A stretch of DNA of 64,000 bases from Halococcus qingdaonensis (lineage in GTDB: Archaea > Halobacteriota > Halobacteria > Halobacteriales > Halococcaceae), in NCBI RefSeq assembly GCF_024508235.1, contig NZ_CP101943.1, positions 2,019,112-2,083,111 on the forward strand, given 5' to 3'. Positions 950 to 16,548 of this stretch are shown here, one piece after another. The translations under genes and the position numbers were made by a program. Numbering within the stretch: position 1 is the first letter of the stretch; every line of letters starts with the position of its first letter. The notes beneath the pieces were generated by a model that saw nothing but the letters and a program-made list of their open reading frames with translations, ran no database searches and was not told the DNA's origin.

Positions 950-1261
950 GGGTTATCTGCCTCCGCGTGTGTTCGATGGGAGACGCTCATCGTTAACGTC
1001 TCCCGAGTAAAAAACCGCGGAAAGGACAGTGAAAGTGGATCGGGCCGAGACCCCCGGTAGTATGATTCTGGATCGGGAATTGGACGACACTCATCGCTCG
1101 GACACTGAGTACACGGACAAGCAATGTGTCACGGCATGATCGACACGCTCACAGGCGAGTTGCGATTCGTGAGATTGAGTTCACCCCGAGATACAACGGT
1201 ATCTGGGATGAGTACTCCCCCCATTCAAGAACTGAAATCGATGCTCGACTCCGTTTTGAGG
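950..1261. other. Intergenic stretch without a convincing gene
   Basis: Apart from the inverted repeat at 978-1004 and the AT-rich promoter element next to it, nothing codable was recognised. The one short open frame on the plus strand has no haloarchaeal codon bias and overlaps the small zinc-finger gene on the other strand. Confidence 0.4.
978..1004. promoter_or_regulatory. Inverted repeat in the RPA promoter
   Basis: Perfect 8-bp arms, GGGAGACG and CGTCTCCC, are separated by 11 bases about 30 bp upstream of the RPA start. A T-rich run at about 1008-1014, read on the minus strand, would serve as the TATA box, so the repeat would overlap the transcription start. It is a candidate operator. 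No regulator can be named. Confidence 0.4.
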
Positions 1262-1405
1262 CTATGAGAGCGTCTCCTCAGTCATCGGTTCGATATGCGA
1301 GGCGTGGCCGGTGTCATGCGTGTGCGTTTCAGCCTGTGTTTCTGCGCCGACCCGTGAAGGGTGAAAGCCGTACTCTCCACACGACTCGCAGATGATCTTG
1401 TACAT
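1262..1405 (-). CDS. Small CxxC protein, 47 residues, unknown function
   Basis: This 47-residue protein starts at the ATG ending at 1405 with MYKIICESCGEYGF and contains one CxxC pair followed by several histidines (ETHTHDTGH). That is compatible with a single zinc-binding knuckle. Small proteins of this kind (YKIICExCGxYGFHPSRVGAE) recur in haloarchaea, often beside replication or plasmid genes. A longer in-frame start upstream exists but would add an uncharacteristic leader. No function can be assigned. Confidence 0.55.
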   Translation of the reverse strand: MYKIICESCGEYGFHPSRVGAETQAETHTHDTGHASHIEPMTEETLS

Positions 1406-1470
1406 GGGTTGATTGCTCCGCGACCCACTATTATCATATACAATCATTAATGTTTTGGCCGTATTCACTG

Positions 1471-2481
1471 TCACTCATCGAACGAACTCGCCGGCGAGAA
1501 CTCGGTCAACTCCTCGATTTCCTGTTCTAAGCGGTCGACTTCCTGGCGCAGGACATCCGCTTCGGGATCGTCGCTGACTGCCAAGCGGTCCTTGAGCCCC
1601 TGCAAGCGCGTCTCCTTGCGTTCGTCGTCCACCTCGGCTTTCCGCACGTACTCGCTCTCGGAGACATTGTAGACGGCCGATTCGGGCACTGAAACGACAT
1701 CCAGCGCTTCCTCTACCTTGTTTCGATCGACGCCGAGCAGTCGCTCGCGATCGATGCCCGTCTCTGTGAACGCCTCGAGCACTTCTTCGTCACCTTTCAG
1801 CGAGCGGTTCCTCCGCGTTGTTCGCTGGACCGACCCGTACTGGCCGTGCACCGGCCGGTCGTGTCCGACCCGCTCCAAGAGCACGTCGGTCACATCCTTG
1901 CGCAGGTCGTTAGCGTTGCGCTGGACGTCCGACAATAACGTGTAGAAATTCACCAATACGGGCGTCTCGACGCTATCGAGAGCGCTCATGTCCTCGCGTT
2001 CGAGCGCGTCGATCAACAGCAGCATATCCGAGTAGACGTCGATCTCGGGTTCTTCGCGCTGGCTGTCCTGCTCGTCGTCCGTGCCCGCGCTCATCGACAA
2101 GTGGGGAGCCTCGTCCAGTACGGCACTCTCGTCGGCTTCGTCGAGTTCGGTTAGCGTGTTCTCGCGCTCGTCGAGTACGTAGCGCGGGTGCAGTGCGAGC
2201 ACTGCCGCGTACGGTTCGGCTTGCGTCGGCAGTCGAGAGAGCTCGTACCCATCGGTTGCCTCGCGTGTGTGCTCGGCGAGCGCTGCGAACTGCTCACGCT
2301 GTAACGGTTGGGTATCGCCCGAATCGACGTCTTCGATGATGATTCGCTGATCCTGAACGTCGGTAATCCGGAATCGCTTTGACGCCAGCGGCGTGATCAG
2401 CGTCGCCTCCTCGGGCAGTTTCTCGCACCGCTCGATCAGCGTTCCCCACGTCGCTCCGAACGGAATCGCCATAGACGCCAC
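1471..2481 (-). CDS. Conserved haloarchaeal hypothetical protein, 336 residues
   Basis: A GTG start at 2481 or an ATG three codons later gives a strongly acidic protein of about 335 residues. The N-terminal 80 residues look like a compact beta-rich domain, the middle is acidic and low in complexity, and the C-terminal 60 residues are predicted coiled coil (EADVLRQEVDRLEQEIEEL). No enzyme motif is visible. It shares the minus strand with the RPA and zinc-knuckle genes, so it may belong to an old plasmid or virus module. I do not recognise the family. Confidence 0.6.
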   Translation of the reverse strand: MASMAIPFGATWGTLIERCEKLPEEATLITPLASKRFRITDVQDQRIIIEDVDSGDTQPLQREQFAALAEHTREATDGYELSRLPTQAEPYAAVLALHPRYVLDERENTLTELDEADESAVLDEAPHLSMSAGTDDEQDSQREEPEIDVYSDMLLLIDALEREDMSALDSVETPVLVNFYTLLSDVQRNANDLRKDVTDVLLERVGHDRPVHGQYGSVQRTTRRNRSLKGDEEVLEAFTETGIDRERLLGVDRNKVEEALDVVSVPESAVYNVSESEYVRKAEVDDERKETRLQGLKDRLAVSDDPEADVLRQEVDRLEQEIEELTEFSPASSFDE

Positions 2482-2569
2482 TTAGACCGCCACTGTCTAA
2501 AGAACCAGTGACAACACGCCGGATTACGAATGGAATTCACCTGTCAGGCTGTCAACCACAGACCGCGAT

Positions 2570-2821
2570 TCATTCGCCACTACTGTTCACTCGTCGGGCG
2601 GTCGGTGTGACGCGAATAGCCTCGCCAACCGTGTAGATATACCCACGGTTGTCAAGAATTTCCAGCGCTTCTTCAGCGTCGACTTTGTCGAAGCGCTCGT
2701 CGTCAGCAATCACGTCGATAGCTTCGTCCCTGAGAAGATCTTTGCCACTTCCACCAGCCGCGTCGGCCACCAGCGCGAGTGTGTCTTCGGCGAACGGCGG
2801 CAATCGCCGCTCTTCATCCAT
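2570..2821 (-). CDS. Small winged-helix-like hypothetical protein, 83 residues
   Basis: An 83-residue acidic protein on the minus strand. The central part (DKVDAEEALEILDNRGYIYTVGEAIRVTP) has the spacing of a helix followed by a beta wing, as in small winged-helix DNA-binding proteins, and ends with a T-P turn. This is an inference from pattern only. It is separated by about 90 bp from the 336-residue gene and by about 60 bp from the zinc-ribbon gene upstream. Confidence 0.5.
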   Translation of the reverse strand: MDEERRLPPFAEDTLALVADAAGGSGKDLLRDEAIDVIADDERFDKVDAEEALEILDNRGYIYTVGEAIRVTPTARRVNSSGE

Positions 2822-2884
2822 AGCCGCTGTTTTAGCTACCTGTATATGAATCTGTAGACACGGGGGGAACCCGATTAGATCCGG

Positions 2885-3115
2885 TCACCCATCAGTCATC
2901 TCCCGATCGATCTCCGTCCGAACGAACTGTTCAGAGATGACTGCATAGCGTATCGTTCCATCCTCTGTCTCGCGAACGCAGGCCGTACAGTATGTCATTC
3001 GGCGTTTGGTCCCATCCTCGAGAACGTACTCGTCGCTCCCGCGCTCGCTTGGATCTCTCGAACCACAGTTCGGACAGGGTGGAGGCTCGGTCACCTCGTC
3101 GCTCTCAGGACACAT
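2885..3115 (-). CDS. Small zinc-ribbon protein, 76 residues
   Basis: Two CxxC pairs (CPNC near residue 14 and CTAC near residue 43) form a clear zinc-ribbon pattern in a 76-residue protein. No other domain is present. Its partner and role are unknown. It lies just downstream of the PadR-like gene on the same strand. Confidence 0.55.
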   Translation of the reverse strand: MCPESDEVTEPPPCPNCGSRDPSERGSDEYVLEDGTKRRMTYCTACVRETEDGTIRYAVISEQFVRTEIDREMTDG

Positions 3116-3148
3116 TGGGAGTGTAGGTGCGGGACAAATCGAAAACAG

Positions 3149-3430
3149 TCAGGCCTCAGCAGCCACGTATTGGTCTTCCCACTCGCGGCGGGCCTCGATC
3201 TCGCGATGTCCACGCTTGGTCACCTGGTAGTAGTTCGTTCGCTTGTCGAGTTCGCCCTTTTCGAGCAGTCCTTTGTCGACGAGCGTATCGAGATTCGGGT
3301 AGAGCCGCCCGTGGTGAATTTGACTCTCGTAGTACTCTTCGAGTTCGTCTTTGAGTGCCAGACCGTGCGGTTTGTCTTTGCCAGCTGCCACGTACAGTAG
3401 ATCACGCTGGAAGCCAGTCAGATCATACAT
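3149..3430 (-). CDS. PadR-family transcriptional regulator
   Basis: A 93-residue single-domain winged-helix protein. The pattern LTGFQRDLLYVAAG, LKDELEEYY, GRLYPNLDTLVDKGLLEKG and NYYQVTKRG is the PadR fold: helix-turn-helix, wing, and a short C-terminal dimerisation helix. Length is normal for minimal haloarchaeal PadR proteins. A palindrome over its own TATA element (3453-3467) suggests autoregulation. The target genes are not evident from the neighbourhood. Confidence 0.8.
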   Translation of the reverse strand: MYDLTGFQRDLLYVAAGKDKPHGLALKDELEEYYESQIHHGRLYPNLDTLVDKGLLEKGELDKRTNYYQVTKRGHREIEARREWEDQYVAAEA

Positions 3431-3452
3431 GTCCCAGAGGTGGTTTGTCTGT

Positions 3453-3467
3453 CAGTAAAATATACTG
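3453..3467. promoter_or_regulatory. Candidate operator over the padR promoter
   Basis: CAGTA and TACTG arms flank the A/T core AAATA about 25 bp upstream of the PadR start. The core read on the minus strand (ATATTTTA) is a good archaeal TATA box, so a dimer bound to the palindrome would block TBP. Confidence 0.4.
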
Positions 3468-3561
3468 GTTTCAGATACCGAATGAACCCCGATTCGATTC
3501 AGACTTCGAATGGGCGCTGTGGCGTGCGACGGTGTAAATAGCGTGCAGCCGAGGGAACCGT

Positions 3562-4788
3562 ATGCAAGATCCACACGAAAAGACGCTCAATCCTCTGGTT
3601 CCGTCGCTCTTCATCAAAGCCGTCCAAGATCGCCTCCGCAGTTACAGCGGGACGCGGCTCTCGCAGCCGCGTCCCTGCCCCGATTGCGGCGATCAGAACT
3701 ACCGCAAACACAACATCGAAGAACAGGTCTTCGCCGTCCTCATCACTGAGGACGGCTTCGAGGAAATCACGGTCGAATACCGCCGCTACTGGTGCAAGAA
3801 CTGCGGAAAGCCGACGCTTCCAGATATGACGCCGCTATTTTACGAAGGCTGCCACTACGGCAAACCGATCGTAGAACTGTGCTTGTTCCATGCGGCGGAG
3901 AATCCGTTTCACGCCAGTGAACGGATTCTCCAAAATCAGTACGGGATTCAGGTCGATCGAGACACGATTCAACGCTACGCCGAGCGGTTCGGCGACAAAG
4001 TCGCCGACCGCCACGGCGTCAAGATCGCCGACTCGACGGTTTCGATGAACTTCCTCTCGCTACTGTTCGGCGTCAGCACCGTTGACGAACTCAAAACCGA
4101 GTACGCCGACGAACTCGACGATGAGGAAATCAACGGTCTCGTCGGTGTCGCCGACGAGACCTATCCAGCGAGGAAAGGCGCGAAAAAAGACCTCTACGAG
4201 GAGAACATGCGTCGCAAGCAGAACGGAAAACAGCCCAAGAAGTGGCCGGAAGGATTCACCGTTGGAAGCTCGTATCTGCCGCAACTGGACTGTTTCGCTG
4301 GACTCCAGTGTCGGAACACGGCCTTCGCGCGAGCGCTGGCGCTCGCGCTCATCTTCCCACTCCGAGGTGTGGATTATTGGCTCACCGACGATCACGACTC
4401 CTACAACGACATCTTGCCGAATCGGGTGAAGTGTCTGGTCCACAAGCTCAGGACACGCGCTCGCGGCGACGAGCGCGTGTCCGAGTTGCACAAAGCGGGT
4501 GAGTTAGACGAACTCCGCGAATATCTCGAAGAGGAGTACGAAATCGCCTACGAGAAGCTAGTGGCAACACTCAGAGAAGAACAGCCAGCGTTCTGGGACG
4601 AAACGGAAGAAGAATTCACCGGGCCAGTGAGTACGAATGCGATAGAGGGCGGAAACTGGCGGCTCAAGTATGGTCTCGGCGTTCCGTACGCGCGGTGCCA
4701 GTCGGCACGCGCGCGTACAGCATTATTGGTCGCGTCGCAGAATCCTTTAGAATCGGGACGATATCCGTCAGCAAGAAGCCGTAGCTGA
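3562..4788 (+). pseudogene. Transposase with N-terminal zinc ribbon, truncated by an ISH6-type insertion
   Basis: The frame begins MQDPHEKTLNP, carries a zinc ribbon (CPDC, then CKNC) in the first 105 residues and then a DDE-type catalytic core: VADETYPA near 210, TDDHDSYND near 285 and STNAIEGGNWRLKY near 360. The last native residues are about AARTALL, after which the frame crosses into the left inverted repeat of the downstream element at 4728 and ends in unrelated sequence. The C-terminus is therefore lost. The insertion-sequence family was not identified with confidence (haloarchaeal ISNCY-like is the nearest guess). Confidence 0.75.
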
Positions 4789-6194
4789 TACCTGAAAGGA
4801 AGGGGACTACTCTGATGTTGAGATGAGAGAGTCCCCGATTCAAATCACACTCACCGTTCACTTGGTACTGTCCATTGATCTGACCGAACAGTATCCACTC
4901 GCTGCTGTTGCCGAGGTACTCACCCAGCAGAGTATCGAATCCGCCCTCCTTGAGACACTCATCCAAAGCCTCAACGAGCACCTCGTTGAGGCGTACTGCG
5001 GCGATAAACACGCACACGGCAACGGTACCAACCGATTCCAACGCTCCGCTACCTCCACTCGCTCGGCGGTTACCACCGCCGGCGAGCACCAATTCACTCT
5101 CGACTACGTCGAAGACACCGCTACTGACGACGAGAACCCCTCTCACTTCCGCCCTATCGAAGACCTCGTCGATTTCGATGGAAAGAAACGCTATCAACAG
5201 GATATCTCCGCTCACAGCGTCGATCTCGCCACCACGCTCTCCTACCGCGACGCTGCTTCTCACGGCGACGGCTTCGACAAGATGCCGTCGCCGGACACCA
5301 TCCAGCGCCGTGTCGAAGAATACGGCGACGAACTCACCGAGTTCGTTGCCGACCGTCTTCCCGGCACAGCAGCCGACACTGTCGTCCCTGACGGCACGAA
5401 ATGCTACAGTCAGGACGACGACCGCGACTACCACGACGTCCAAGTTACCCTCGCAGAAGACACCGCCGAGAACTCGCGGTCGTTGCTGGATGTCTCGGTT
5501 AACGCTGACTGGGATGAGACAGCATCCTCACTGGAGGCAATAGACGCGATCACTGACGACGCGAGGGTCGTCAGTGACGCTGAAAATCGTCTCGTCACAG
5601 CCTTTACCGACGGAACACGCAAACACCAACTCGATCTGTCCCACGTTCCACGAACACTCAGCTACATGCTCTGGGACGACGGCGCACTCTCATTAGATGA
5701 CCGCAGGGAGGTCACTTCGGAAGTTGCAGGTGAGCTGTTCCATCTCAAGAACTCCGTCGAGAAGCATCGTCCAGAGGAGGAACGTTCGGCGATCCGCGAG
5801 CGGATCGACCGAACGGAAGAGAGGATAGAAAAGACGGCATGGCAGTTAGAGCAGCTATCCTCGCCGAAAGCAGCAGAGTATCTCCGGAGTGGGTTGCCAT
5901 CGATAGTAACGTTCGCCGAGGATGCACTCGACGGGTTCGAGGTACCGTGGACCTCGAACCCAGTCGAACGGGCAATGGGTGAAGTCGCCAAACGGTGCAA
6001 ACGTGATTGGATGCGGTGGACGGAAGACGGGTTAGAGGCGCTGCTTCAGCTGCGACTCGTGAAGTACGCGAATCCAGATTACTACCGCCAGTTCTTCGAT
6101 AATTTCCTCCAGCGGTCAACCCACAACAAGATACGCTGCACTGTTTCGGTCACAGTCACTGGAGGTGAAGTCTAAACGGTCTTGCGACGCGACC
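4728..6194 (+). mobile_element. ISH6-family insertion sequence
   Basis: Imperfect terminal inverted repeats of about 24 bp are visible: the left end starts GGTCGCGTCGCA at 4728, and the complement of the right end, finishing at 6194, begins with the same 12 bases. Both continue with a closely similar tail ending TTTAGA. The length of 1,467 bp and the single transposase fit ISH6. The 8 bases outside each end (4720-4727 and 6195-6202) are not identical, so no clean target duplication remains. That points to a later deletion or recombination beside the element. Confidence 0.85.
4823..6175 (+). CDS. ISH6-family transposase
   Basis: A full-length 450-residue transposase with the recognisable ISH6 sequence blocks: KHAHGNGTNRFQR, TTAGEHQFTLDYVEDTA, YQQDISAHSVDLATTLSYRD, VPDGTKCYSQDDD and the C-terminal TSNPVERAMGEVAKRCKRDW. 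It should catalyse DNA cleavage and strand transfer of its own element through a DDE active site. The frame is intact and sits between the two inverted repeats, so the element may still be active. Confidence 0.9.
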   Translation: MRESPIQITLTVHLVLSIDLTEQYPLAAVAEVLTQQSIESALLETLIQSLNEHLVEAYCGDKHAHGNGTNRFQRSATSTRSAVTTAGEHQFTLDYVEDTATDDENPSHFRPIEDLVDFDGKKRYQQDISAHSVDLATTLSYRDAASHGDGFDKMPSPDTIQRRVEEYGDELTEFVADRLPGTAADTVVPDGTKCYSQDDDRDYHDVQVTLAEDTAENSRSLLDVSVNADWDETASSLEAIDAITDDARVVSDAENRLVTAFTDGTRKHQLDLSHVPRTLSYMLWDDGALSLDDRREVTSEVAGELFHLKNSVEKHRPEEERSAIRERIDRTEERIEKTAWQLEQLSSPKAAEYLRSGLPSIVTFAEDALDGFEVPWTSNPVERAMGEVAKRCKRDWMRWTEDGLEALLQLRLVKYANPDYYRQFFDNFLQRSTHNKIRCTVSVTVTGGEV

Positions 6195-6655
6195 CATATT
6201 TCTGATTATTGACGAACCATCGAAAGCATTCCGACCGCCTGCCGCTACGCCTGTCAGTGATACTTTCACCCTCTGTACGTGCTGTTTGTCTAATGACCAG
6301 GAAAAGACATGATAACTGGTCTACAATACGATCTACGCAGAGGTCAGCTAGGTCGATTCATCAGGCACAGTCTCTTCCGCAATTCAGATCGGGATTGTTC
6401 CACTGTTGCTCGTGCATGAGCAAACTACCTGCCTGACTTCAGATATTTGAATACAGATTGTCTCTAACAGGCGTGCTGAATATGCGCTCTGTATCTCGCA
6501 CGGTGGATCTCTCAACTGTGAGGAAATATTCGTGCAAAATCATAGATGCTCCGATAATCACTATAGCTCTCACTGACGTTTCTCAAAGCATCACTTTCAC
6601 TCGGGATCGTGCTTCCGATAGCCGTCAGACGGCGCTGGCGACCACTCTGGGGCCA
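6195..6655. other. Gene-free stretch containing the MITE
   Basis: Between the ISH6-type element and the next gene there is only the 105-bp MITE and about 350 bp of moderately AT-rich sequence with short broken frames. A 25-bp patch at 6474-6499 resembles 60769-60795 in the core region, but the match is too short to call a repeat. I see no gene. Confidence 0.5.
6338..6442 (-). mobile_element. MITE, copy A (105 bp)
   Basis: Read on the minus strand, this segment begins CTGAAGTCAGGCAGG and ends with the complement of CAGAGGTCAGCTAGG, giving imperfect terminal inverted repeats of about 15 bp. It has no coding capacity. It matches 15546-15651 along its whole length in opposite orientation at roughly 88-90 percent by eye. 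No target duplication is visible around this copy. The parent insertion sequence is not in the window. Confidence 0.7.
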
Positions 6656-6874
6656 TCAATCGTAGCAGTCGTAAGCAGTTTCGCGGTAAGCTTGCTCACT
6701 GTCATCGTGCTGGGCACGCTCGACAGCTGCCCGTGCCTCGTCAAGCAGCGCGTGGGCGCGCGAGAGGTCGCTACCATGGAGAGCGTCGATCGCGTACTCG
6801 CAGGCTTCGACCGCTTGCTGGTGGGCGTCCGAACGGTCTTCTGTGTCGTCGGGGTGATGAACGTCGTCGCTCAT
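6656..6874 (-). CDS. Small acidic hypothetical protein, 72 residues
   Basis: A 72-residue, probably all-helical acidic protein (DAHQQAVEACEYAIDALHGSDLSRAHALLDEARAA) with the periodicity of a tetratricopeptide-like helical hairpin. It lies 14 bp downstream of the winged-helix gene on the same strand and is probably co-transcribed with it. Its function is unknown. Confidence 0.5.
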   Translation of the reverse strand: MSDDVHHPDDTEDRSDAHQQAVEACEYAIDALHGSDLSRAHALLDEARAAVERAQHDDSEQAYRETAYDCYD

Positions 6875-6888
6875 TTGTCTCTTCTTCT

Positions 6889-7299
6889 CTATTGCGGCCG
6901 CGGCGCACGCTCGAAGCGTTTGATTTGCTCGTTTTTCTCGATGCGCTCGTACACTGCGCGTAACGTCTCCTCGGCGCGCAACAGGCCATGGCGATCGAGA
7001 AACGCCTGTCCCTCATCGCTCAGTCCATAGAACTTGTACGGAAGGTCGCGTTTGCGTCGGTCAGATGGGAGCATGTAAGTCTCGACGATACCCGCCTCAA
7101 CCAGCCGTTCGAGATGCTGGTAAATCGTTCCCTCACTCTTGCTCGGATTGACGTAGGCGAGTTCCTTCATCGAGGGGAGCTGTGACGGGTGGCCGAGAAT
7201 GTTCTGAAGGAGGACGAACCGCGTGTCCTGCGTTACGACGTGCAACCGCTCGCGCTCTTGCTCGCCTTCGAAGCCGTCCGTCGATGCTGTCTCGCTCAT
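6889..7299 (-). CDS. Winged-helix transcriptional regulator (PadR/ArsR-like)
   Basis: A 136-residue protein. Residues 25-110 show a winged-helix pattern: RFVLLQNILGHPSQLPS, a recognition-helix region EGTIYQHLERLVEAGIVE, and a wing with a basic loop (PSDRRKRDLPYKFYGLS) followed by a dimer helix. Such regulators are common in haloarchaea, where they usually control the adjacent divergent gene. Here that is the unknown protein starting at 7412; the two share a 112-bp intergenic region holding a short palindrome. Confidence 0.75.
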   Translation of the reverse strand: MSETASTDGFEGEQERERLHVVTQDTRFVLLQNILGHPSQLPSMKELAYVNPSKSEGTIYQHLERLVEAGIVETYMLPSDRRKRDLPYKFYGLSDEGQAFLDRHGLLRAEETLRAVYERIEKNEQIKRFERAPRPQ

Positions 7300-7339
7300 G
7301 AGTAGTTGTTCGTCCTGCCGGTACTAATAGTTTGTCTCG

Positions 7340-7350
7340 ACCAATTTGGT
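7340..7350. promoter_or_regulatory. Palindrome in the divergent promoter region
   Basis: ACCAA-T-TTGGT is a perfect 5-bp-arm palindrome between the winged-helix gene (start 7299) and the divergent gene (start 7412). Related GGTTTGG-type half sites lie at 7366-7374. A TATA-like GATATAAT follows at 7380-7387. The arrangement is compatible with shared control by the winged-helix protein. Confidence 0.35.
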
Positions 7351-7411
7351 TGCTAAACTGGCGGCTGGTTTGGTGAGCAAGATATAATGCTGGTTGCTTC
7401 GTACCCAGCGT

Positions 7412-7984
7412 ATGGACGACCATTCGGAGCCGGGTGTTGATGATATCGCCGACCGCGCTGCCGAGTACGCCCACCTCGATACGCTCTCGCCACGCGAATA
7501 CGAACAAGCGCTCGACGCGGTTGCCGAACTGACGCCGCTGTTCGAGTACGAGACCTCGTATTTCGTGCTCGGAAGCTACGGCACGCCGGAAATCCATCGG
7601 CTCCAGCTCGTCAAAGACCGATTGAACCGTCGCTCCGACGTGTATGCGTTCCTGATGGTGGACATTCGCGGTGAGTGGTCGAACACGCTGGTGAAGTTTC
7701 GCATTCTCGCTGACTACGCGACGTGTCTCGTTGGCGTTGCCGAACACGACCGCAGTGGATTCCTTGTCGAGCAAGGGATGTTCTTTCTCCATCAGCCCTA
7801 CTTCGAACGAGCGCACGTCCTCAAGCGCGAGTATGCCCAATCGACGCTTGATGAAGAGTTCGACGGGAACGAGCCGTACAGTGCGCTCCAACTCGATGGG
7901 TTTGACCTCCTCGACCGAGAGGGGCGACTGTTCGTCTGGACAGGTGAAGACGAGTTGATGGCTGCTGTCGAAAAACTTCCATGA
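7412..7984 (+). CDS. Conserved haloarchaeal protein of unknown function, possible Rossmann-like fold
   Basis: A 190-residue protein starting at the ATG at 7412, about 25 bp after a TATA-like element. The sequence order FVLGSYGTPEIHRLQLVKDRL, YAFLMVDIRGEW, VKFRILADYA, CLVGVAEHDRSGFLVEQG has the strand-helix rhythm and glycine-glutamate signature of nucleoside-deoxyribosyltransferase or TIR-like folds. This is a visual resemblance only, and no catalytic residue is proven. It is divergent from a winged-helix regulator. Confidence 0.6.
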   Translation: MDDHSEPGVDDIADRAAEYAHLDTLSPREYEQALDAVAELTPLFEYETSYFVLGSYGTPEIHRLQLVKDRLNRRSDVYAFLMVDIRGEWSNTLVKFRILADYATCLVGVAEHDRSGFLVEQGMFFLHQPYFERAHVLKREYAQSTLDEEFDGNEPYSALQLDGFDLLDREGRLFVWTGEDELMAAVEKLP

Positions 7985-8025
7985 ATTGTAGACGGCTTTA
8001 TCGAAGGTAGTGTCTTACCAACCAA

Positions 8026-8115
8026 AGATTCGGAGGATGAGTTTCTACAAACTACCACGCAGCTGATGATTTGCTGTTCAGGAAGAACGGTCTATCATGC
8101 TTATCCTGCCTGCGC
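8026..8115 (+). mobile_element. 90-bp non-autonomous derivative of the recombinase element
   Basis: The left 33 bp (8026-8058) match the complement of 12567-12599 at 29 of 33 positions. The right 21 bp (8095-8115) match the complement of 11532-11552 at 20 of 21. The two blocks occur in the same order and orientation as at the ends of the 1,068-bp element carrying the AbrB-like gene and serine recombinase. Only about 36 bp lie between them here. This is therefore best read as an internally deleted copy of that element. Confidence 0.65.
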
Positions 8116-8199
8116 TGCACCCCCATCAGGCTATGAGGTTTCAGTAGGAATCTGAGAACCTGCTTTCCTGCTTAGTCGCCTATTCTACTGGATATGTAC

Positions 8200-8217
8200 T
8201 AATTAGAGGTCTAATTA
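8200..8217. promoter_or_regulatory. Perfect 18-bp palindrome in the P450 promoter
   Basis: TAATTAGA-GG-TCTAATTA has perfect 8-bp arms. It overlaps the probable TATA element (AATTAATAAA, 8212-8221), 43 bp upstream of the P450 start. It is a strong candidate operator for a dimeric regulator. The regulator is not identified. Confidence 0.5.
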
Positions 8218-8259
8218 ATAAAGCAATAACATTATTCAATCGCCTCACGAATATGGGGT

Positions 8260-9474
8260 ATGGCAACTTCAGGACAAGCGGGGCCAGTCGCTCAACCGGA
8301 CGCACTCTCAACACGTGAAGCACGCCTCGATCCGTTCTCGTGGTATCGAGAGATGCGCGAGGAATCACCGATTCGCTACGACGAGGACCGCGGGTGTTGG
8401 GACGTGTTTCGCTACGACGACGTTCAAGACGTTCTCCACAACGCGGAGGAGTTTTCCTCGGAGCGACCGCTGACGGCACAGGGTGAGAATGAAACCGACG
8501 GCATGGCTCTCGAAACCATGCTCAATACCGACCCACCACGCCACGACGAGCTCCGAAAAGTCGTCGACGACCCGTTCAAGCCCGGTGCGGTGAAACACCT
8601 CGCCCCGCACATCCGTGACATCACCAACGAGTACATCGATGCCGTCGTTGATGACGGTGAAATGGATATCGTCGCGGACCTCGCCACGCCGCTGCCAGTC
8701 ACCGTGATCGCCGAACTCATCGGCGTGCCAGCGGACGACCGCGAGCAGTTCAAACAATGGTCCGATACCATCGTCGAAGGTCCCGAAGCAGCCACGGTGA
8801 GCGCTGAAACAGTCAGAGAGGAACAACTACAGACCCAAGCCGAGATGGCGACGTACTTCACGGACCTGATCGAACAGCGTCAGGAAGACCCACGCGATGA
8901 CCTCATCAGTCAGGTCATTCACGCCGAAATCGAAGGCGCTACCCTTTCAAAGGGTGAAACGCTCGGCTTTCTCGCATTGTTGTTGATCGCCGGAAATATC
9001 ACGACCACGAATCTGATCACGAATGCGGTCCGGTGTTTCGCAACGCTTCCAGATGGGATCGAATCGGTCCGTGATGCCGCCTCGCTCGAACTTGCTATCG
9101 AAGAAGTGCTCCGGTACCAATCACCGATTCAAGCAGTCTCACGAATAGCAACAGACGACACACAACTCGGGGGTCACGATGTCGAAGCTGGTGATAGAGT
9201 CGTCGTGTGGAACGGCTCAGCAAACCATGATGGCGACCAGTTCGACGATCCCGACACGTTCGTTCCGGACAGATCGCCGAATCAGCATCTCGCCTTCGGG
9301 AATGGCATCCACTTCTGTCTCGGAGCACACCTGGCACGTCTCGAAGCGAGAACCGCTCTCTCGACGATGTTTGACCGCTTCGAGACGATGCAGGTCCCCG
9401 AAACGGAACTCCAACCAGTCGGGAGCACGTTCCTCTATGGAGTTCAGGAACTCCCAGTTCAATTTACCATATGA
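8260..9474 (+). CDS. Cytochrome P450
   Basis: A 404-residue soluble P450, the normal length for class I archaeal and bacterial enzymes. The heme-thiolate loop FGNGIHFCLGAH places the axial cysteine at 353. The ExxR motif of helix K is E282-R285 in EEVLRYQ. Helix I reads AGNITTTN (A244-G-N-I-T248), so the usual acidic residue before the conserved threonine is isoleucine. The protein should mono-oxygenate an organic substrate with electrons from a ferredoxin system, but no redox partner is encoded nearby. It is convergent with an alcohol dehydrogenase. The substrate is unknown. Confidence 0.93.
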   Translation: MATSGQAGPVAQPDALSTREARLDPFSWYREMREESPIRYDEDRGCWDVFRYDDVQDVLHNAEEFSSERPLTAQGENETDGMALETMLNTDPPRHDELRKVVDDPFKPGAVKHLAPHIRDITNEYIDAVVDDGEMDIVADLATPLPVTVIAELIGVPADDREQFKQWSDTIVEGPEAATVSAETVREEQLQTQAEMATYFTDLIEQRQEDPRDDLISQVIHAEIEGATLSKGETLGFLALLLIAGNITTTNLITNAVRCFATLPDGIESVRDAASLELAIEEVLRYQSPIQAVSRIATDDTQLGGHDVEAGDRVVVWNGSANHDGDQFDDPDTFVPDRSPNQHLAFGNGIHFCLGAHLARLEARTALSTMFDRFETMQVPETELQPVGSTFLYGVQELPVQFTI

Positions 9475-9646
9475 AACAATACTCTAATACCGAGATGTGA
9501 ATATCGGAGTTAACGGATCGCTCTTGTGTCGACTGGCGGAATAGCGTGTTACCAATAACTAATCAAACCTGAGAAACCGCCACTACGTCATGGACACAGG
9601 CCGTTTACGAATTGGATCGCCTGCCATCTCGTGATTCCGCTGTACT

Positions 9647-9670
9647 ACACAAGAGCGGGCGATCTTGTGT
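9647..9670. terminator. Inverted repeat between convergent genes
   Basis: ACACAAGA and TCTTGTGT are perfect 8-bp arms around an 8-base loop, located between the convergent P450 and alcohol dehydrogenase genes. Its position suggests an RNA hairpin at transcript ends. Archaeal termination needs only T-runs, so the role is uncertain. Confidence 0.35.
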
Positions 9671-9740
9671 GCAAAATCGGGATCGGCGTTCTCCCGGCGC
9701 GCAACCGCACGGGGTTATAGCAAAAATTGTCCGAGAGTGC

Positions 9741-10808
9741 TCAGCTACTGAAATCGTTACAGACTGGGATTCCCAGCGTGTTGAATTCGGTCATGGAAGC
9801 GAGTTCATCTGGGACTTCGTGAATGTCGACAGTCTCGCTGACGAGCGCTGCCGGATCGAGTTTGCTCGATTCGATCATGTCTAGCATCTCGCTGTAGCGC
9901 GAGGGCTGGAGACCGAGTGAGCCGTGGAAATCGATCTCCTTGGAAACGAAGTCATCGACCGGCAGTGGAACCATTCCTTCTTCTTCCGAGGTGGTCAACC
10001 CGATCTGAACGTGCGTTCCGCCTTTGCGGAGGCTGTTGACCGCGTTCTGGCAAGTGGTTTTGATACCGAGTCCGTCGGCTGAGACGTCCGCTCCTCCGTC
10101 AGTGATGTCGTGAACTTCGGCGGCGGGATCGTCGACCTCACTAGCGTTGACGGTGGCGACCGCACCGAGTTCTTCAGCTTTGTCGAGATTCTCATCCTTC
10201 AGGTCCACCGCGATCACGTTGCCACCGAGAGCGTTGGCAATGTGGACGGCTGAAAGACCGATACCACCGCAGCCGTGGATCACCACATCATCGCCACCGC
10301 TTACGGGTGCCCGATGGGCCATCGCGTGAAACGAAGTCATAAATCGGCAGCCACACCCAGCGGCGGTTTCAGCGTCGATACTGTCCGGCAGCGGCACAGC
10401 GTTGACATCGGCGTGTGGAATGTGAACCTCCTCGGCGAACGCTCCGGGAGCTTGATTCATGAATCCCAACCCGATGTGGTTCTCACAGATGTTCTCGCGG
10501 CCGTTCCGACACAGATCACAGGTCCCGCATGCGAGGCAGAACGGGATTGCGATTTCCTGCCCCTCTTCGACGGTTTCGACATCCTCACCGACGGATACGA
10601 TACGAGCAGTGGGTTCGTGACCGAGAACGTGTGGCGGGTCGGGCCGGTAACCGAACCAGTCCCAGTCGCCCTGCCAGCAGTGCCAATCCGAGCGGCAGAC
10701 TCCACACCCGATGAGTTTGGCGACGGCTCCATCGGGTTCTGGTTCAGGACGTTCGACATCCTGGACGGTCAACGGCTCCTGAAACTCCTCCAGTACAACT
10801 GCCTGCAT
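9741..10808 (-). CDS. Zinc-dependent alcohol dehydrogenase (MDR family)
   Basis: A 355-residue medium-chain dehydrogenase starting MQAVVLEEF at the ATG ending at 10808. An upstream in-frame start would add only a short leader. Catalytic zinc ligands are in GVCRSDWH and GHEP. The structural-zinc lobe has four cysteines in CLACGTCDLCRNGRENIC. The Rossmann motif is GCGGIGLSAVH near residue 175. It should oxidise an alcohol, or reduce an aldehyde, with NAD(P). It is convergent with the P450, so a shared substrate pathway is possible but unproven. Confidence 0.9.
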   Translation of the reverse strand: MQAVVLEEFQEPLTVQDVERPEPEPDGAVAKLIGCGVCRSDWHCWQGDWDWFGYRPDPPHVLGHEPTARIVSVGEDVETVEEGQEIAIPFCLACGTCDLCRNGRENICENHIGLGFMNQAPGAFAEEVHIPHADVNAVPLPDSIDAETAAGCGCRFMTSFHAMAHRAPVSGGDDVVIHGCGGIGLSAVHIANALGGNVIAVDLKDENLDKAEELGAVATVNASEVDDPAAEVHDITDGGADVSADGLGIKTTCQNAVNSLRKGGTHVQIGLTTSEEEGMVPLPVDDFVSKEIDFHGSLGLQPSRYSEMLDMIESSKLDPAALVSETVDIHEVPDELASMTEFNTLGIPVCNDFSS

Positions 10809-11229
10809 GACATTCCCACACACGAAGAGGCAGCTAATAACCATTATGGATGATGGTTTTCATTTAATCAGTGTTTTCATCACTCCCTCTCATCGGTCTA
10901 GTGAATAATGACAGAGTATGCACTCATGAGTCCTGTACGAATCACGAGTAAATCCATTTCGAGCGCGAATCAGCGACGAAAAACCACCGGACAGCAGTAG
11001 TTCATTATTCCAATGAGTTACAACTGACATCGTGACTTGGCGGTTTCGGGGTAATTCTATCACAATACAGAGTAATATCGGTGTACGTCGAGGAGGTTTG
11101 GCTCGTCAGATTTACACTCCGGACGCGGGGTGTCGTCGCGCCGATCACGTCGGAGCGCTACCCTGCAACGAAGGGAGTGCCTACTGACTGGGTGAGAAAA
11201 CATATATCGACGGGTGATGGAAATGGTGT
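10809..11229. other. 420-bp intergenic stretch
   Basis: No coding frame of any quality was seen. The part next to the dehydrogenase is AT-rich (around 10840-10880) and should contain its promoter. The part next to 11230 holds an AT element (AACATATATC, about 11199-11208) that can serve as the TATA box of the small membrane protein. Confidence 0.4.
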
Positions 11230-11448
11230 ATGGTCAACACTCTCTTGAGTCAGTATAGAAGGGTGGACCAGTGGCTTAGAGATCTGCCGCGAGCTTGGTA
11301 TGTTCTTTTGGTTGGTATCGGGTTTTTCGCTACTTGGATTGGTCTATCACTTATTCTGGGAGGAGAACCGCTCTATCGGTCGATACTTCTGGGTGGGGTT
11401 GGGGCTTTCACTTTTGCTAGCGTCTATTACTTTCTGGGTTCCCGCTAA
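11230..11448 (+). CDS. Small two-helix membrane protein, 72 residues
   Basis: Two hydrophobic segments are visible, about residues 24-43 (YVLLVGIGFFATWIGLSLIL) and 50-68 (SILLGGVGAFTFASVYYFL), with a basic N-terminus. It starts at the ATG at 11230, about 22 bp after a TATA-like element, and ends at 11448 before the recombinase element. Base composition is more AT-rich than the core genes. The function is unknown. Confidence 0.5.
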   Translation: MVNTLLSQYRRVDQWLRDLPRAWYVLLVGIGFFATWIGLSLILGGEPLYRSILLGGVGAFTFASVYYFLGSR

Positions 11449-11574
11449 TCGTGCTTTTTACACTGAGGCGTTCGATGTGCAGACAACTTCTGTAGATAGG
11501 ACCACTTTTACGGCCCTCGGAGGGGCCGTCGGCGCTGGCAGGATAAGCATGACCCAAAGCCATCCGACCAATTC

Positions 11575-12315
11575 CTACCGTGACGAGTTGATCGTCCGTC
11601 TTGGCTGTGAAGTCGAGCTACGCTCGTTTCCGTTCACATCCGCGGGAAGATACCGCTCGCAGCGGGAGTAGATCCGGCGCGCGGTGTCTTTGTTCACGCT
11701 GGTCTCGCGTTCGATCTCTCGCCAGGAGCGACCATCGTTGCGGAGTCTGATACACGCAAGCGCCGCTTGGTACTCGTCAGTGTCATGGGCAGGAACCCAG
11801 TAGCGTCCGTCCTCGTCGTAGGTCAGCCCGAACGGTAGACGACCGTGATCGTAGCCATTCTCGATGCGTTCCTGTGTTGCGCGTTTCGAGCGCGCGATCT
11901 CTTTGCGTTTCTCGACGTCGTCGGTAGTCGCCCGAATTGACTGGTGGACGAGTGCCCAATCGTCATCGAGATCGACCGCACGACCGAGCTCAACCGAATG
12001 AACCGCGACGTCAGCTGTATCGACGTCAAGCAAGAGTCGGAGACGTTCCTTGCGATCACGGGAGAGTCGCGAGAGGTTCGGGACGATAACCGTATCCACA
12101 CCGCCGTCAGCAACGTGCTCACGGAGCGCGGTGTACTCCGGGCGGTCGGTATCGAACCCGGAACTTCGTTTGCCCTCGTCGTAGACTGTGATCAGCTCGA
12201 CCCCGCGCCCAGTTGCGTAGTCCTTGACGTCCCGGCGCTGTCGATTGAGTGATTTCCCGTCTTGAGAGAGTCGAATGTAGCCGACAGCAGTGTCGGATTC
12301 GGTTTCAGTCGTCAT
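11575..12315 (-). CDS. Serine site-specific recombinase (resolvase/invertase family)
   Basis: A 246-residue protein starting MTTETESDTAVGYIRLSQDG; the catalytic serine is S17 in YIRLS. The conserved arginine region VPNLSRLSRDR follows near residue 80. A helical E-helix region (ARSKRATQERIENG) and a C-terminal helix-turn-helix (SWREIERETSVNKDTARRIY) come next. It should cut and rejoin DNA through a phosphoserine intermediate. Its start overlaps the stop of the AbrB-like gene (ATGA-type overlap), so the two are translationally coupled and probably work together. Confidence 0.88.
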   Translation of the reverse strand: MTTETESDTAVGYIRLSQDGKSLNRQRRDVKDYATGRGVELITVYDEGKRSSGFDTDRPEYTALREHVADGGVDTVIVPNLSRLSRDRKERLRLLLDVDTADVAVHSVELGRAVDLDDDWALVHQSIRATTDDVEKRKEIARSKRATQERIENGYDHGRLPFGLTYDEDGRYWVPAHDTDEYQAALACIRLRNDGRSWREIERETSVNKDTARRIYSRCERYLPADVNGNERSSTSQPRRTINSSR

Positions 12316-12463
12316 CGTCGACCACACGGAGTTCGAAGGTGTTGCCGGACTTGACCGACCACTCGAATCGTTTGCCGTCGAGATCGAACCCCTCGACGAA
12401 CCCGAGAGGGACGGTGGTCTTGTAGTGGCGATCACCGGCTTTGTTGATGGCTGTTGTCGGCAT
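12305..12463 (-). CDS. AbrB-like small DNA-binding protein, 52 residues
   Basis: A 52-residue protein that starts MPTTAINKAGDRHYKTTVP. The HYKTTVPLGFVEGF and KRFEWSVKSGNTFELRVV blocks follow the swapped-hairpin AbrB pattern (basic strand, P-x-F turn, then two beta strands). It precedes the serine recombinase and overlaps its start by a few bases. Two related palindromes lie 8-40 bp upstream of its start, which suggests autoregulation of the pair. It may act as repressor or as accessory factor for recombination. Confidence 0.7.
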   Translation of the reverse strand: MPTTAINKAGDRHYKTTVPLGFVEGFDLDGKRFEWSVKSGNTFELRVVDDDD

Positions 12464-12470
12464 TGGTGAT

Positions 12471-12503
12471 CCGTACTATGGTTAGTACGGTATTTAGTAC
12501 TAA
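12471..12503. promoter_or_regulatory. Two palindromes upstream of the AbrB-like gene
   Basis: CCGTACTA-TGGT-TAGTACGG (12471-12490) is a perfect inverted repeat, and TTAGTACTAA (12494-12503) is a 10-bp palindrome with the same TAGTAC core. They lie 8 and 31 bp before the start codon and overlap the likely TATA region (ACTAAATAC on the minus strand). Repeated use of one core is what an autoregulating DNA-binding protein would need. Confidence 0.5.
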
Positions 12504-12657
12504 TGGAGGTGTATCAGAAAGGTGGGTTTCTGAGACGCTACTGCACTTTCCAAAACAGTTAGAAGACTGGTGGTTTGTAGAAATCCATCCTCCGAATCTC
12601 TGGATCTCCAAGGCTGACTGATGTCACGAACGACAGAATCTATGCACGAGAATCGGG

Positions 12658-14451
12658 ATGAGGATGAGTCGGACGGCTAACCGGTCGGGGAGGAACACAG
12701 TCCCGAGTGGTCACAAACGACACAGAACGGGTCGGGGCTGCGGAACGCAGCCTCGACCCGATGACCGACTGAAGAACACTGATTCCCTTTCTGGCGGACG
12801 GTTGCTGTTGACAAAACAGGCCGAAGACATCCTCGACGAGACATCTGACGCGGTCGAGGTGGTCAGCCACCTCGATCTCGCTTCGTACGCCCAAAACGAT
12901 CCATTCCCGGACTGGCACGACTCGAAGCCGTTCGAACCGATGGTTCGGGCGCTCTTTCTCGGCGAACTCGAAGATGCGTCCGATGCCGCCGTGCATCGGA
13001 CGCTCGAAGAGGACCCCGACGTGGCAGCCGATCTTGGATTCGATCCTGACGACGTACCTAATCAGAGTACGCTCTCGCGTGCGCGTCGCAACCGATTCGA
13101 AGAGTTTCAATCGAGAATCGAAGAGAGCGCGCGGCAGATTCGGATGCTTGCCGCCAGACGTGGGAGTCCAATCGGGACGCCCTACGCTGACAGCGCTTCG
13201 GAGGAGCCGACAGGCTCCTCGAAGCGCACCGTCAACCGACTCATTCGCGGGAAAACCCGCGAAGTGGTCGAAGAGCTCACCTCTGTCGTGTTCCCGGCGA
13301 TCGATTTCGACCGACCCGATGGGTCGATCTACGACGACGAAGAGCTTCTGCTGCTGGAGACGTTGCTCGGGGTCACAGGCACCGCCGCCAACGGCGGTGC
13401 CGAGATCTACGGCGATTACGTCAATCCTGAGCCGGATCTCGATGATCCATTCTACGAGGACGGTCCGTCTGGAGAGACGCTGTTAACGGCGGTCAAAGAC
13501 CTCGACCTCGACGAAATCACGGAGATGGTCAACCGTGGCGCGGCCCGCGTCTTGACGCGGGCCAAGCCGTACGTGGAGTTCGACCGGCCGGTCATGATCG
13601 CGATCGACATGACCTACATCGCCTACTACGGTGAACGTGACGAGATAGTTCGCGTTCAGGGAGCTCCTAAGGACAAATCCTACGACTGGTGCTACAAGTT
13701 CGCGACTGCGAGCGTTGTTGGCGATAACATCCAGTTCACCGCGGCAATGCTTCCGATCGGTGACGCTGATGATCATGATCCGAACGAGTACGTTGGCGAA
13801 GACAAATCCTATCGAGCCGGCGGCGTGGTCCGCCGGCTCGTGGATATTGTCGAGGAGCGCGTCAGATTGAGCGTCCGCCGCGTCTACGCTGACAGAGAGT
13901 TCCACGCTGCGGACGTGATCGAAGCACTCGAACAGCGTGATCTGTTCTACGTGATCCCGGCCACGCGCGATGCCCGCGTGAAGCGGTTCATCGCGCGCAT
14001 GGACGATCAGGTCACGGTCAAGGATACATGGGCGATGCACGGTCCCGTGAAGGGAAAACCAAACAATGCCAGGGTTGAGACGACGTTAGTTGGACTCCCT
14101 CCTGACGAGGATCGCGACGAAATCCAAACGTTCCTGACCAATCTCGCCGTCGACGACGAGATTGGTCTGGATCGGCGGCAGACACGACGTCGGATTAAGC
14201 GATACACCCGACGAGGCGGTATCGAGAACGCCTACGGCAGCATCAAGGAATTCGCCCCGTGGACGACATCGAAAGACTACGCCGTGCGGTTGTTCCACTT
14301 CGGATTCGCGATGCTGCTGTACGATATGTGGCTGTTGGTTGACCTCTTGGTCCAACTCTCGCTTGGTGTCGTGGAATTCCGCACGAAACCGCGGGTCATC
14401 GCCCCGCGGTTTCGTGGCTTCCTCCAGAGGAGGTTGGTAACACTCCTGTAG
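12658..14451 (+). CDS. DDE transposase
   Basis: The open frame of 597 codons begins just inside the left inverted repeat. The true start is probably later, for example the TTG at 12808 in front of TKQAEDILDETSD, because the first 50 residues look non-native. Catalytic blocks are AIDMTYIAYYG near 318, YADREFHAADVIE near 414 and GGIENAYGSIKEF near 530, which supply the D, D and E of an RNase-H-fold transposase related to the IS4/IS5 group. The frame is intact. Confidence 0.8.
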   Translation: MRMSRTANRSGRNTVPSGHKRHRTGRGCGTQPRPDDRLKNTDSLSGGRLLLTKQAEDILDETSDAVEVVSHLDLASYAQNDPFPDWHDSKPFEPMVRALFLGELEDASDAAVHRTLEEDPDVAADLGFDPDDVPNQSTLSRARRNRFEEFQSRIEESARQIRMLAARRGSPIGTPYADSASEEPTGSSKRTVNRLIRGKTREVVEELTSVVFPAIDFDRPDGSIYDDEELLLLETLLGVTGTAANGGAEIYGDYVNPEPDLDDPFYEDGPSGETLLTAVKDLDLDEITEMVNRGAARVLTRAKPYVEFDRPVMIAIDMTYIAYYGERDEIVRVQGAPKDKSYDWCYKFATASVVGDNIQFTAAMLPIGDADDHDPNEYVGEDKSYRAGGVVRRLVDIVEERVRLSVRRVYADREFHAADVIEALEQRDLFYVIPATRDARVKRFIARMDDQVTVKDTWAMHGPVKGKPNNARVETTLVGLPPDEDRDEIQTFLTNLAVDDEIGLDRRQTRRRIKRYTRRGGIENAYGSIKEFAPWTTSKDYAVRLFHFGFAMLLYDMWLLVDLLVQLSLGVVEFRTKPRVIAPRFRGFLQRRLVTLL

Positions 14452-14524
14452 AACCCGCGCCGGGTTCGCCCCTCAGTAGAGGCGTCACTGTCCAGTTCCC
14501 CTGATTTCACTCTGAGGCCCTTGT

Positions 14525-14558
14525 GCAACTGCCACTCAGTGGAGTGAGTGGCAGTTGC
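14525..14558. terminator. Perfect 13-bp hairpin downstream of the transposase
   Basis: GCAACTGCCACTC and GAGTGGCAGTTGC flank an 8-base loop, 74 bp after the transposase stop and inside the element. It may end the transposase transcript or block read-through from outside. Confidence 0.4.
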
Positions 14559-14853
14559 GGATGCTCGATTCGGGTCAGATCATATCGGAATTTTCGATTT
14601 AGCGGCTCTCCCGTGCATAGATTTTGGGGTATTCGCAGCAGCAGGGCTGAATTTCGATAAACCACTATAAAGTGTATAAACTCTAATATTGAGTCTAAGC
14701 CACCTGTTACGGTTGAAATCGGAGGAATTGGCGGTTTTTCGGTTTACTCGTGCTTAGTTGAATAAGGGCACGTAGATTTATCCACCTCCCCGCCCTCTCC
14801 CACAGCGTACCAGATGCCACGACCCAGAACCACGGTTACTCATCGCGAGAGCA

Positions 14854-15549
14854 GTGCTCGAGCCAGCGAACGCAGTGGAGGCGCGTAGCGTGGTGTCGAT
14901 TGATGCAGTTATCGAGGACTTCCTGACGGACAAGGGCAAAGGTCAGGGTGGCGAGAGCGGCAACTATCGCCAGGACGCGGGCCGAGAGCTCGATCGGCTC
15001 GTCGATTTTCTTACTGGCCACGAAGACAGTCCGACGACGTTCGACGAGTTGGACTCGGGCCACCTGCGCGAGTACGCGCGTCACCTCACTCGGCAAGGTT
15101 GGACAGCGGGCACTGTGCGCACCTACTACGCGTACGTCTCCGCGTTCTGTGGCTGGGCCGTCCGTGAGGGGCACCTCGCCGAGAACGTCGCTCAGCGGCG
15201 CAACGCGACCGAGCCAATTCCCGACGACGGTGGTCACAAGAGCGGCGAGCAGCAAGCGTGGTCGGCCGAAGATCGCCAGCAGCTCACCGGCTTCGTCGAC
15301 GAGCAAGCCAGCACGGCGATCGACAACGTCGGCGAAGACAGAGAGGCAGCGATCAAAGCCTGCCGTGATCGTGCACTCGTCTATCTCCTCTCGTACTCCG
15401 GCGTGCGAGGCGCGGAAATTCTTCGAGATCGGAGCGATGAGCGTCGGCAGGGGCTTCGGTGGGAAGACGTTCACCTCGAAGATCGCTATGCGACGGTCTT
15501 CGCGAAAAAGCAGCGCCTCGACGATCGAGGTCTTCCCAACCCAGTCTGA
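14854..15549 (+). pseudogene. Tyrosine recombinase (XerC/D-like integrase), truncated
   Basis: A SAM-like core-binding domain (about residues 14-110: DAVIEDFLTDKG, FDELDSGHLREYARHLTRQGW) is followed by the start of the catalytic domain, with the first catalytic arginine at about 185 in SGVRGAEI. The frame then stops at 15549, within the first bases of the 106-bp MITE, after LPNPV. The H-x-x-R and catalytic tyrosine are missing, so the protein cannot recombine DNA. The start is uncertain: GTG at 14854 or the GTG pair about 12 codons later. Confidence 0.85.
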
Positions 15550-15651
15550 AGTCAGGCAGGCAGTTTGTTCATGCACGACCAACAATGGAACAATCTCGAT
15601 CTAAATTGCGTAGGGAGACTGTGCATGATGAATCGACCTAGCTGACTTCTG
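15546..15651 (+). mobile_element. MITE, copy B (106 bp), at a gene-breaking junction
   Basis: It begins CTGAAGTCAGGCAGG and ends in the complement of CAGAAGTCAGCTAGG, giving terminal inverted repeats with about 12 of 15 matches. It is the inverted counterpart of 6338-6442. The integrase reading frame stops in its first four bases, and the dppB frame enters from the other side and ends inside it at 15601. Two unrelated truncated genes thus meet at one element. The flanks show no target duplication, as expected for recombination between copies rather than simple insertion. Confidence 0.7.
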
Positions 15652-16548
15652 CTGGATGGCGACGAGGCTCAACCCGCCGAGACCTTGAATCCCGAAGACG
15701 TACTCGATAACGAAGACGTTCAGGACGACGATCCCGAGCATGTCTGCGAAAAACAGCGACAGCAATGGGACGGCCGCGTTGCGTAGCAGATGCCGAGCGA
15801 CTCGTCGGCTTCCTGCGCCTTTGGCCCGAACGAGTTTGATGAATTCCGCATCGGTGTATTCGAGCGACTGGGCACGTGCGTACCGGAGCTGTCCGGCAAG
15901 CAGGCTCGTCCCCAACACTGCGGCCGGAAACACGACCGTGTAGAGAAGCCCGCTCGTCCGTCCCGGCGCACCTGACAGCATCCCGCCCACACCGAGACCG
16001 GAGAGCACTACGATCTCTGCGAGCCAGAAGTTCGGTAGGCTGAAGCCGAGATGGGCGACGCTCGTCCCGAGTCGATCGACGAACGTGTGCTGGCGCGTCG
16101 CCGTGTAGACGCCGATGCTGATGCCGCCGACGACCGAGAACACGATGGCCGGAACGAGATACGACAGCGTGCGCGACACCGCGCTCGCTACCAGTGATGT
16201 CACTGGGGTGTCCTCGGGGTAGGACTGGCCGAACATCACTCCCGTCCTCGTCGTCCCGAACGCCGTCCCGAGGTCAAGCGTCGCAACGTCGCCCAACCAG
16301 TCGACGTAGCGCTCGCCGACCGGTTCGTCGAGGTTGCGCTGCTGCCTATATTCGACCAATCGCTCCCATGCATCCGTCTGTTTCACCGGAGTGTCTTCCT
16401 CCGCGGATTCCTCGGCGGCCGACCGTGCGAGCTGTCCAGTGTAGGGGTCCGACGTGACTGCGACGAACGCGAAGACCAGCGAGACGACGAGAAACGTGGC
16501 GAGTACGGCGAACGTCGCCCGGCGGACGATTTGCCAGCGACGGTTCAC
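15601..16548 (-). pseudogene. dppB: Peptide ABC transporter permease (DppB-type), C-terminally truncated
   Basis: A GTG start at 16548 gives a protein with an N-terminal membrane helix, a large extracytoplasmic loop and the binding-protein-dependent permease domain, including the EAA-like loop (EFIKLVRAKGAGSRRVARHLLRNA). After GLGGLSLVAIQQ at about 15652 the native sequence is replaced by residues encoded in the MITE, so the last membrane helix and tail (roughly 40 residues) are lost. The gene is divergent from dppC, which is unusual because dppB and dppC normally follow each other on one strand. It is probably non-functional. Confidence 0.8.

Follow-up and report, generated by a model that had tools for sequence, protein, structure and literature searches.

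The integrase-dppB junction in the 64,000-nucleotide stretch of Halococcus qingdaonensis DNA analyzed here (the window) is best explained by a 44-kb transposon inserted into dppB, with a 106-bp MITE supplying its second end, and by membership of that transposon in a family in which MITEs appear to serve as portable second ends. We give this reading a probability of about 0.92. The window covers the right-hand part of the element and the chromosomal sequence beyond it, and the features of both, together with related units from other genomes, are listed in Table 1.

A 43,951-bp insertion in dppB

The whole element spans G000:C1:1990812-2034762 and lies between the two halves of dppB. A perfect 8-bp direct repeat, CTGGATGG, stands on both of its sides: from position 1990804 the left junction reads CTGGATGG followed by CTGAAGTCGGCTAG..., and the right junction reads ...CTAGCTGACTTCTG followed by CTGGATGG. 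The head of dppB encodes 299 amino acids up to the MITE, and its homology to the relative G003 begins exactly at window position 15652 (G000:C1:2034763). The tail of the gene is present in the same genome, to the left of 1990812, where it ends at 1990803, about 44 kb upstream of the head. Both parts lie on the same strand and in the ancestral order, colinear with G003; the G003 segment L040:1-8445, which holds the dppB end together with the genes that follow, aligns with the plus strand of G000:C1:1981817-1990803. When the flanks are joined and one repeat is removed, a DppB of 337 residues is restored, of which 315 are identical to those of G003. The colinear tail, the CTGGATGG repeat and the intact joined protein together indicate the insertion of a large transposon, which most likely moved into dppB as one piece.

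The site is uninterrupted in G003 and G009, although the remainder of the gene has decayed in G009, and the integrase-dppB junction is absent from both relatives that have the locus. A preliminary description, based on the letters alone, had proposed to look for the missing dppB end elsewhere in the genome and to see whether it abuts another MITE copy. The end is there, and it abuts the transposase-bearing end of the element and not a second MITE. The same description took the MITE as the border between a region rich in mobile elements and the ordinary chromosome, and the base composition bears this out, with a GC content of 57.2% inside the island against 66.4% and 64.5% in the flanks.

Inverted terminal repeats, a target-site duplication (TSD) and an empty site thus all accompany the 44-kb unit, as in a transposon insertion. 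Its right terminus (G000:C1:2034762) is the right terminus of the MITE (window 15651). Its left end is an inverted repeat (CTGAAGTCGGCTAG...) related to that of the MITE; inward of it come genes for an ISH7-related DDE transposase and a serine recombinase. Among 15 aligned loci of relatives, 11 have a homologue of this left module that starts at the same base (query 9, equal to 1990812), and in seven of the first eight loci the homology reaches no further than query 3223-3251, shortly before the recombinase. A second end for the module was sought between 1990812 and 2003578 and none was found; on these grounds a short autonomous insertion sequence at the left end was rejected. Nor does the layout correspond to a composite transposon, since a transposase module occupies one end and a MITE the other, instead of two full insertion-sequence copies.

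The left-end transposase has 662 residues, lies just inside the left end and contains the Pfam domains DUF772 and DDE_Tnp_1; it is presumed to be active. Its closest family-named match among the 20 plasmid matches listed is ISH7B of Halobacterium NRC-1 (43.7% identity over residues 86-662, 87% of the query), a relationship drawn from sequence similarity, with no curated ISH7 model among the matches. The protein scores 66.1 bits against the NCBIfam equivalog for ISH3, for which at least 225 bits are required, and its DUF772/DDE_Tnp_1 composition, together with TSDs of 7-9 bp rather than 5 bp, sets the element apart from the Tn3 family. Its YRHRWGIENGFKKQK fits the YREK signature of IS4-like transposases. 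The neighboring recombinase carries a Pfam Resolvase domain and is a predicted resolvase.

Beyond the recombinase, the element carries genes for an AsnC/TrkA-C regulator, universal stress proteins, an amino-acid permease, TrkA and TrkH; two TrkH-like open reading frames (ORFs) occur in the island, the second of which was covered by the domain scan. A lone MITE-type end lies at G000:2003579, inside the island, and rightward of it follow passenger transposases, a helicase, a DUF11 protein, ISH6, a cytochrome P450, an alcohol dehydrogenase, a transposase with a recombinase, and half an integrase. The second DUF772/DDE transposase, in the window, is distantly related to the left-end one (24% identity over 408 columns). 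The beginning of an ORF similar to the alcohol dehydrogenase occurs in the 8.5-kb element G006:C16:19109-27616. As a separate observation, the DUF11 cargo gene, the product of which is very acidic, contains 7.9 perfect copies of a 36-bp repeat (L115:13823-14107, that is, G000:C1:2013823-2014107).

Table 1. Features of the window, given in window positions, and TSD-flanked units in this and other genomes
Feature	Position	Strand	Remarks
44-kb transposon, right-hand 15.7 kb	1..15651		remaining left 28.3 kb upstream of window
ISH6-family transposase	4823..6175	+	passenger IS; 391.8 bits, cut-off 240
Second MITE copy, 105 bp	6338..6442	-	inside transposon; 90% identical to junction MITE
Cytochrome P450	8260..9474	+	cargo gene
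Zinc alcohol dehydrogenase	9741..10844	-	cargo gene
Second serine recombinase	11575..12435	-	passenger
Second DUF772/DDE transposase	12658..14451	+	passenger
Tyrosine integrase, N-terminal part	14854..15545	+	cut by MITE; C-terminal part missing
MITE, 106 bp	15546..15651	+	L-type end at left, R-type at right
Right TSD copy, CTGGATGG	15652..15659		8 bp
dppB head, ABC-transporter permease	15652..16548	-	299 codons; interrupted by transposon
Left TSD copy, CTGGATGG	G000:C1:1990804-1990811		outside window
Unit with exact TSD	G000		43,951 bp
Unit with exact TSD	G005:C27		5,631 bp
Unit with exact TSD	G007:C24		9,234 bp
Unit with exact TSD	G007:C9		5,314 bp
Unit with exact TSD	G006:C8		14,424 bp; ABC-transporter set
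Unit with exact TSD	G003:C85		6,221 bp; cysteine-synthase-like gene
Unit with exact TSD	G006:C16		8,508 bp; heavy-metal ATPase and aldehyde dehydrogenase
Unit with exact TSD	L153, Natrialba taiwanensis		6,327 bp
Unit with exact TSD	L165, Natrialba taiwanensis		5,443 bp
Tenth unit, from 8-bp filter	G006:C12:11228-32806		21,579 bp; TSD ACCTAGAC
20,674-bp unit	L242:2-20675, Halalkalicoccus jeotgali plasmid 1		TSD CTTCTAAT
20,674-bp unit	L241:2-20675, H. jeotgali plasmid 3		TSD CTATACT

Related units in other haloarchaea

An end motif, made by hand from ends already observed, was used to scan regions of G000, stretches of Halococcus contigs and 30 named loci under two filters. The first, restricted to 8-bp repeats, gave 87 ends and 69 pairs; the second, admitting repeats of 7-10 bp, gave 97 ends and 54 outward-facing pairs on the same contig. 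The second set of counts includes duplicates, as contigs of G009 are also among the named loci L146-L175, but the TSD-matched pairs are all distinct. Exact TSDs of 7-9 bp flank 9 of the 54 outward pairs, compared with one match of at least 7 bp among 2,277 cross-contig pairs; the other 45 outward pairs lack one, and most of these need not be partners. With one further unit from the first filter, there are ten TSD-bearing units in all, this island included, ranging from 5.3 to 44 kb, and their duplications measure 7, 8 or 9 bp. The cargo differs among the nine others, as judged by eye from the first residues in the ORF lists. Transposase-like ORFs are absent from the lists of two of these nine, G003:C85 and G006:C16, whose ends are of the same type. 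The recurrence of one transposase-type end, variable cargo, one MITE-type end and a 7-9 bp TSD defines a family of cargo transposons.

The cleanest case comes from complete, named plasmids. An identical unit, with 0 differences over its 20,674 bp, occurs in plasmids 1 and 3 of Halalkalicoccus jeotgali and carries transposase, recombinase and copper-resistance genes. Both plasmid records start one base ahead of the unit, so an assembly artefact is possible, but the two sites carry different duplications, which speaks against one. For transposase-type ends on H. jeotgali plasmid 2 and on the H. dombrowskii, Natrinema and Halocatena plasmids, no TSD partners appeared in the stretches examined. 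Similarly, at G009:C118:7440-31622, an expected unit of 24.2 kb that runs from a transposase-type to an R-type end with related stress-protein and Trk cargo, a matching TSD was sought and not found; there, the transposase gene of another insertion sequence sits between the transposase-type end and its transposase.

Two further observations concern the choice of target. Two integrase copies of one family carry transposon ends (G009:C101:5483 and G009:C118:31622) at almost identical places in their 5' parts, a possible target preference. Moreover, element ends stand head to head, 6-7 bp apart, at G005:C27:53139/53147, 59959/59967 and 65597/65604 and at G007:C24:88791/88799, often with GTACTAT/ATAGTAC as the spacer, which suggests either insertion beside an existing end or a preferred target.

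The MITE as a proposed second end

The junction element is short and non-coding, with imperfect terminal inverted repeats (CTGAAGTCAG / CAGAAGTCAG), its ends in the window reading CTGAAGTCAGGCAGG... and ...CCTAGCTGACTTCTG; copies in relatives measure 105-111 bp. As the preliminary description noted, integrase and dppB are both cut exactly at its ends, homology stopping at 15545 and resuming at 15652, and its view that simple insertion of a MITE cannot explain such a junction is upheld. A check of the flanks revealed no direct repeat of the element's own, and none adjoins the second copy in the window, the R-type side of which borders ISH6-adjacent DNA in a junction shared with the Halococcus genome G004. 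The ISH6-side junction is the same in the two species (window 6194-6442 and G004:C15:3105-3353), and the DNA diverges from the border onward beyond the other end of the MITE. ISH6 was considered as the parent of the MITE, but ends of this kind recur at the left transposase module, in the island as in relatives, and none other than the MITE was found at ISH6 itself, so this candidate was given up.

On the other side of the junction, 9 of the 12 loci compared match the integrase as far as 15545, and the remaining three as far as 15536-15542. Intact genes of relatives read on past the breakpoint (marked here by a slash) as ...CAGT/GATTCA..., ...CAGT/GATTCATCC... or close to these. The truncated protein retains a SAM-like domain at its N terminus and lacks the C-terminal part present in relatives. 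The preliminary description had also proposed to look for the intact integrase end elsewhere in the genome; a search of G000 found no C-terminal half with the matching breakpoint. Nothing matches the tail apart from a paralogue (2663976-2664443) and a fragment of 50 residues (2650579-2650728), which places the donor copy outside this assembly. A search with Pfam PF00589 missed the paralogue and is hence uninformative. The missing half fits a donor copy left behind elsewhere, and the integrase was probably cut by the MITE in the donor, before capture.

These data suggest the following course. A MITE would have inserted earlier into an integrase gene on a donor replicon; the transposase would then have paired its own end with the outer, R-type end of this MITE and moved everything between, so that only the left half of the integrase came along. 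On its insertion into the chromosomal dppB, the 44-kb unit duplicated 8 bp of target. We infer the capture from another replicon, the donor site of the unit not having been found.

MITEs appear to act as portable second ends elsewhere in the family as well. In eight of the ten elements the distal end is double-ended and has the shape of a MITE: a second end, facing inward, lies at a distance of 105-110 bp (p about 0.01 or lower when compared with random windows taken from that element). L153 and G003:C85 lack this shape at their distal ends (p about 0.12). The outer end of a unit can be either an L-type or an R-type MITE end. Three of 13 MITE-sized copies (in G000, G006:C12 and L165) form the far end of a TSD-matched unit, and none of the 13 has a local TSD of 6-9 bp, as a MITE moving alone would. 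The G000 unit skips two ends, at 2003579 and 2025553, that lie nearer and have the correct orientation. A more far-reaching reading, which is possible but which we hold at less than even odds, is one-ended transposition: a haloarchaeal module with a single inverted repeat would take its second end interchangeably from 106-bp MITEs scattered through the DNA, and not always from the nearest.

The explanation that competes most seriously does so solely with the MITE-capture part. The island may be a unit transposon of the ordinary kind, with the double-ended 106 bp as a built-in terminus and not a captured MITE. The 105-110 bp shape of eight distal ends would follow, as would an inner end that is often decayed, as expected of one without a role, and the lack of local TSDs around all 13 MITE-sized copies. 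However, in G000 the inner end cuts the integrase exactly where relatives are intact, MITE-sized copies exist with no transposase-type end on the stretch examined (for instance G005:C86 and G009:C102), and L-type ends, inner here, are the outer ends of other TSD-matched units (for instance G007:C24:98032 and L165:6184). We hold an intrinsic terminus to be less likely than not.

Much less probable is the integration of a plasmid by homologous recombination with a related insertion sequence or MITE that had first entered dppB with its own TSD. It would also leave a target duplication at the outermost ends, and it would suit an island of lower GC with many passenger insertion sequences. Two hybrid copies in direct orientation, with two ends each, would be the product of such a crossover, whereas here the left module has no second end before 2003579 and the right side is a 106-bp MITE with only short end similarity; nor would integration account for the same end layout and TSDs at nine other loci.

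The least tenable proposal is that of the preliminary description, in which two MITE copies underwent homologous recombination, with deletion or rearrangement of the DNA between integrase and dppB: a MITE does sit at the junction, another MITE and an isolated MITE-type end are present within 32 kb, and junction swapping at MITEs does occur, the copy shared by G000 and G004 having one flank in common and the other different, but the dppB half lies 44 kb away on the same strand, in ancestral order and beside a transposase-type end, and recombination would not create an 8-bp direct repeat flanking the whole block, so that the proposal gives way almost entirely to insertion.

Known systems and biological meaning

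Tn3-like unit transposons run from an inverted repeat through transposase, resolvase and cargo to a second inverted repeat. The 44-kb unit matches this layout in its variable cargo and in a transposase that is grouped with a serine recombinase at one end, but differs in its unrelated transposase (DUF772 and DDE_Tnp_1), its longer duplication and its MITE-shaped distal end. ISH7 and ISH7B are labelled ISNCY in the Halobacterium NRC-1 annotation; unlike the left module, ISH7B has no recombinase gene annotated beside it in the pNRC100 stretch, and the end scan gave no matching ends for ISH7 in pNRC100.

The nearest functional parallel concerns the Tn3-derived TIMEs and TIME-COMP of Pseudomonas, miniature elements that mobilize the DNA between them (PMC4133298). 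TIMEs share miniature inverted-repeat ends and target duplications with the 44-kb unit and carry resolvase and plasmid genes, but they are bacterial, belong to the Tn3 family, generate duplications of 5-6 bp and have a miniature element at both ends and no internal transposase (PMC4133298); the unit described here is archaeal, with an ISH7-related DDE transposase at one end, a MITE at the other and duplications of 7-9 bp in its family. Tn6645 (PMC6382973) likewise has 8-bp duplications around a cargo block, but it is bounded by two ISAba3 copies, and MITEAba12 is an internal passenger in place of an end. MITEs of haloarchaea are already known (PMC3119063, PMC10969869). Those of Haloquadratum walsbyi are presented in the part available as short, transposase-free mobile repeats mobilized in trans, and not there as ends of cargo transposons (PMC3119063). 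No description of a haloarchaeal cargo-transposon family was found in the full texts searched, which included few subscription papers and lay outside ISfinder, and an earlier naming is possible.

The odd junction has thus become evidence for a haloarchaeal family of cargo transposons that reaches at least 44 kb, occurs on plasmids and chromosomes and carries metabolic, potassium-transport and metal-resistance genes. A transposase-recombinase module, a distant MITE and matching 7-9 bp repeats provide an annotation signature for such islands, and archaeal MITEs acquire a role in gene capture, as second ends, that can be tested. If one-ended transposition holds, a module could pick up and move any stretch up to a MITE (5-44 kb in the units seen), and MITEs would be portable ends for gene capture, seldom if ever moving alone, rather than failed transposons.
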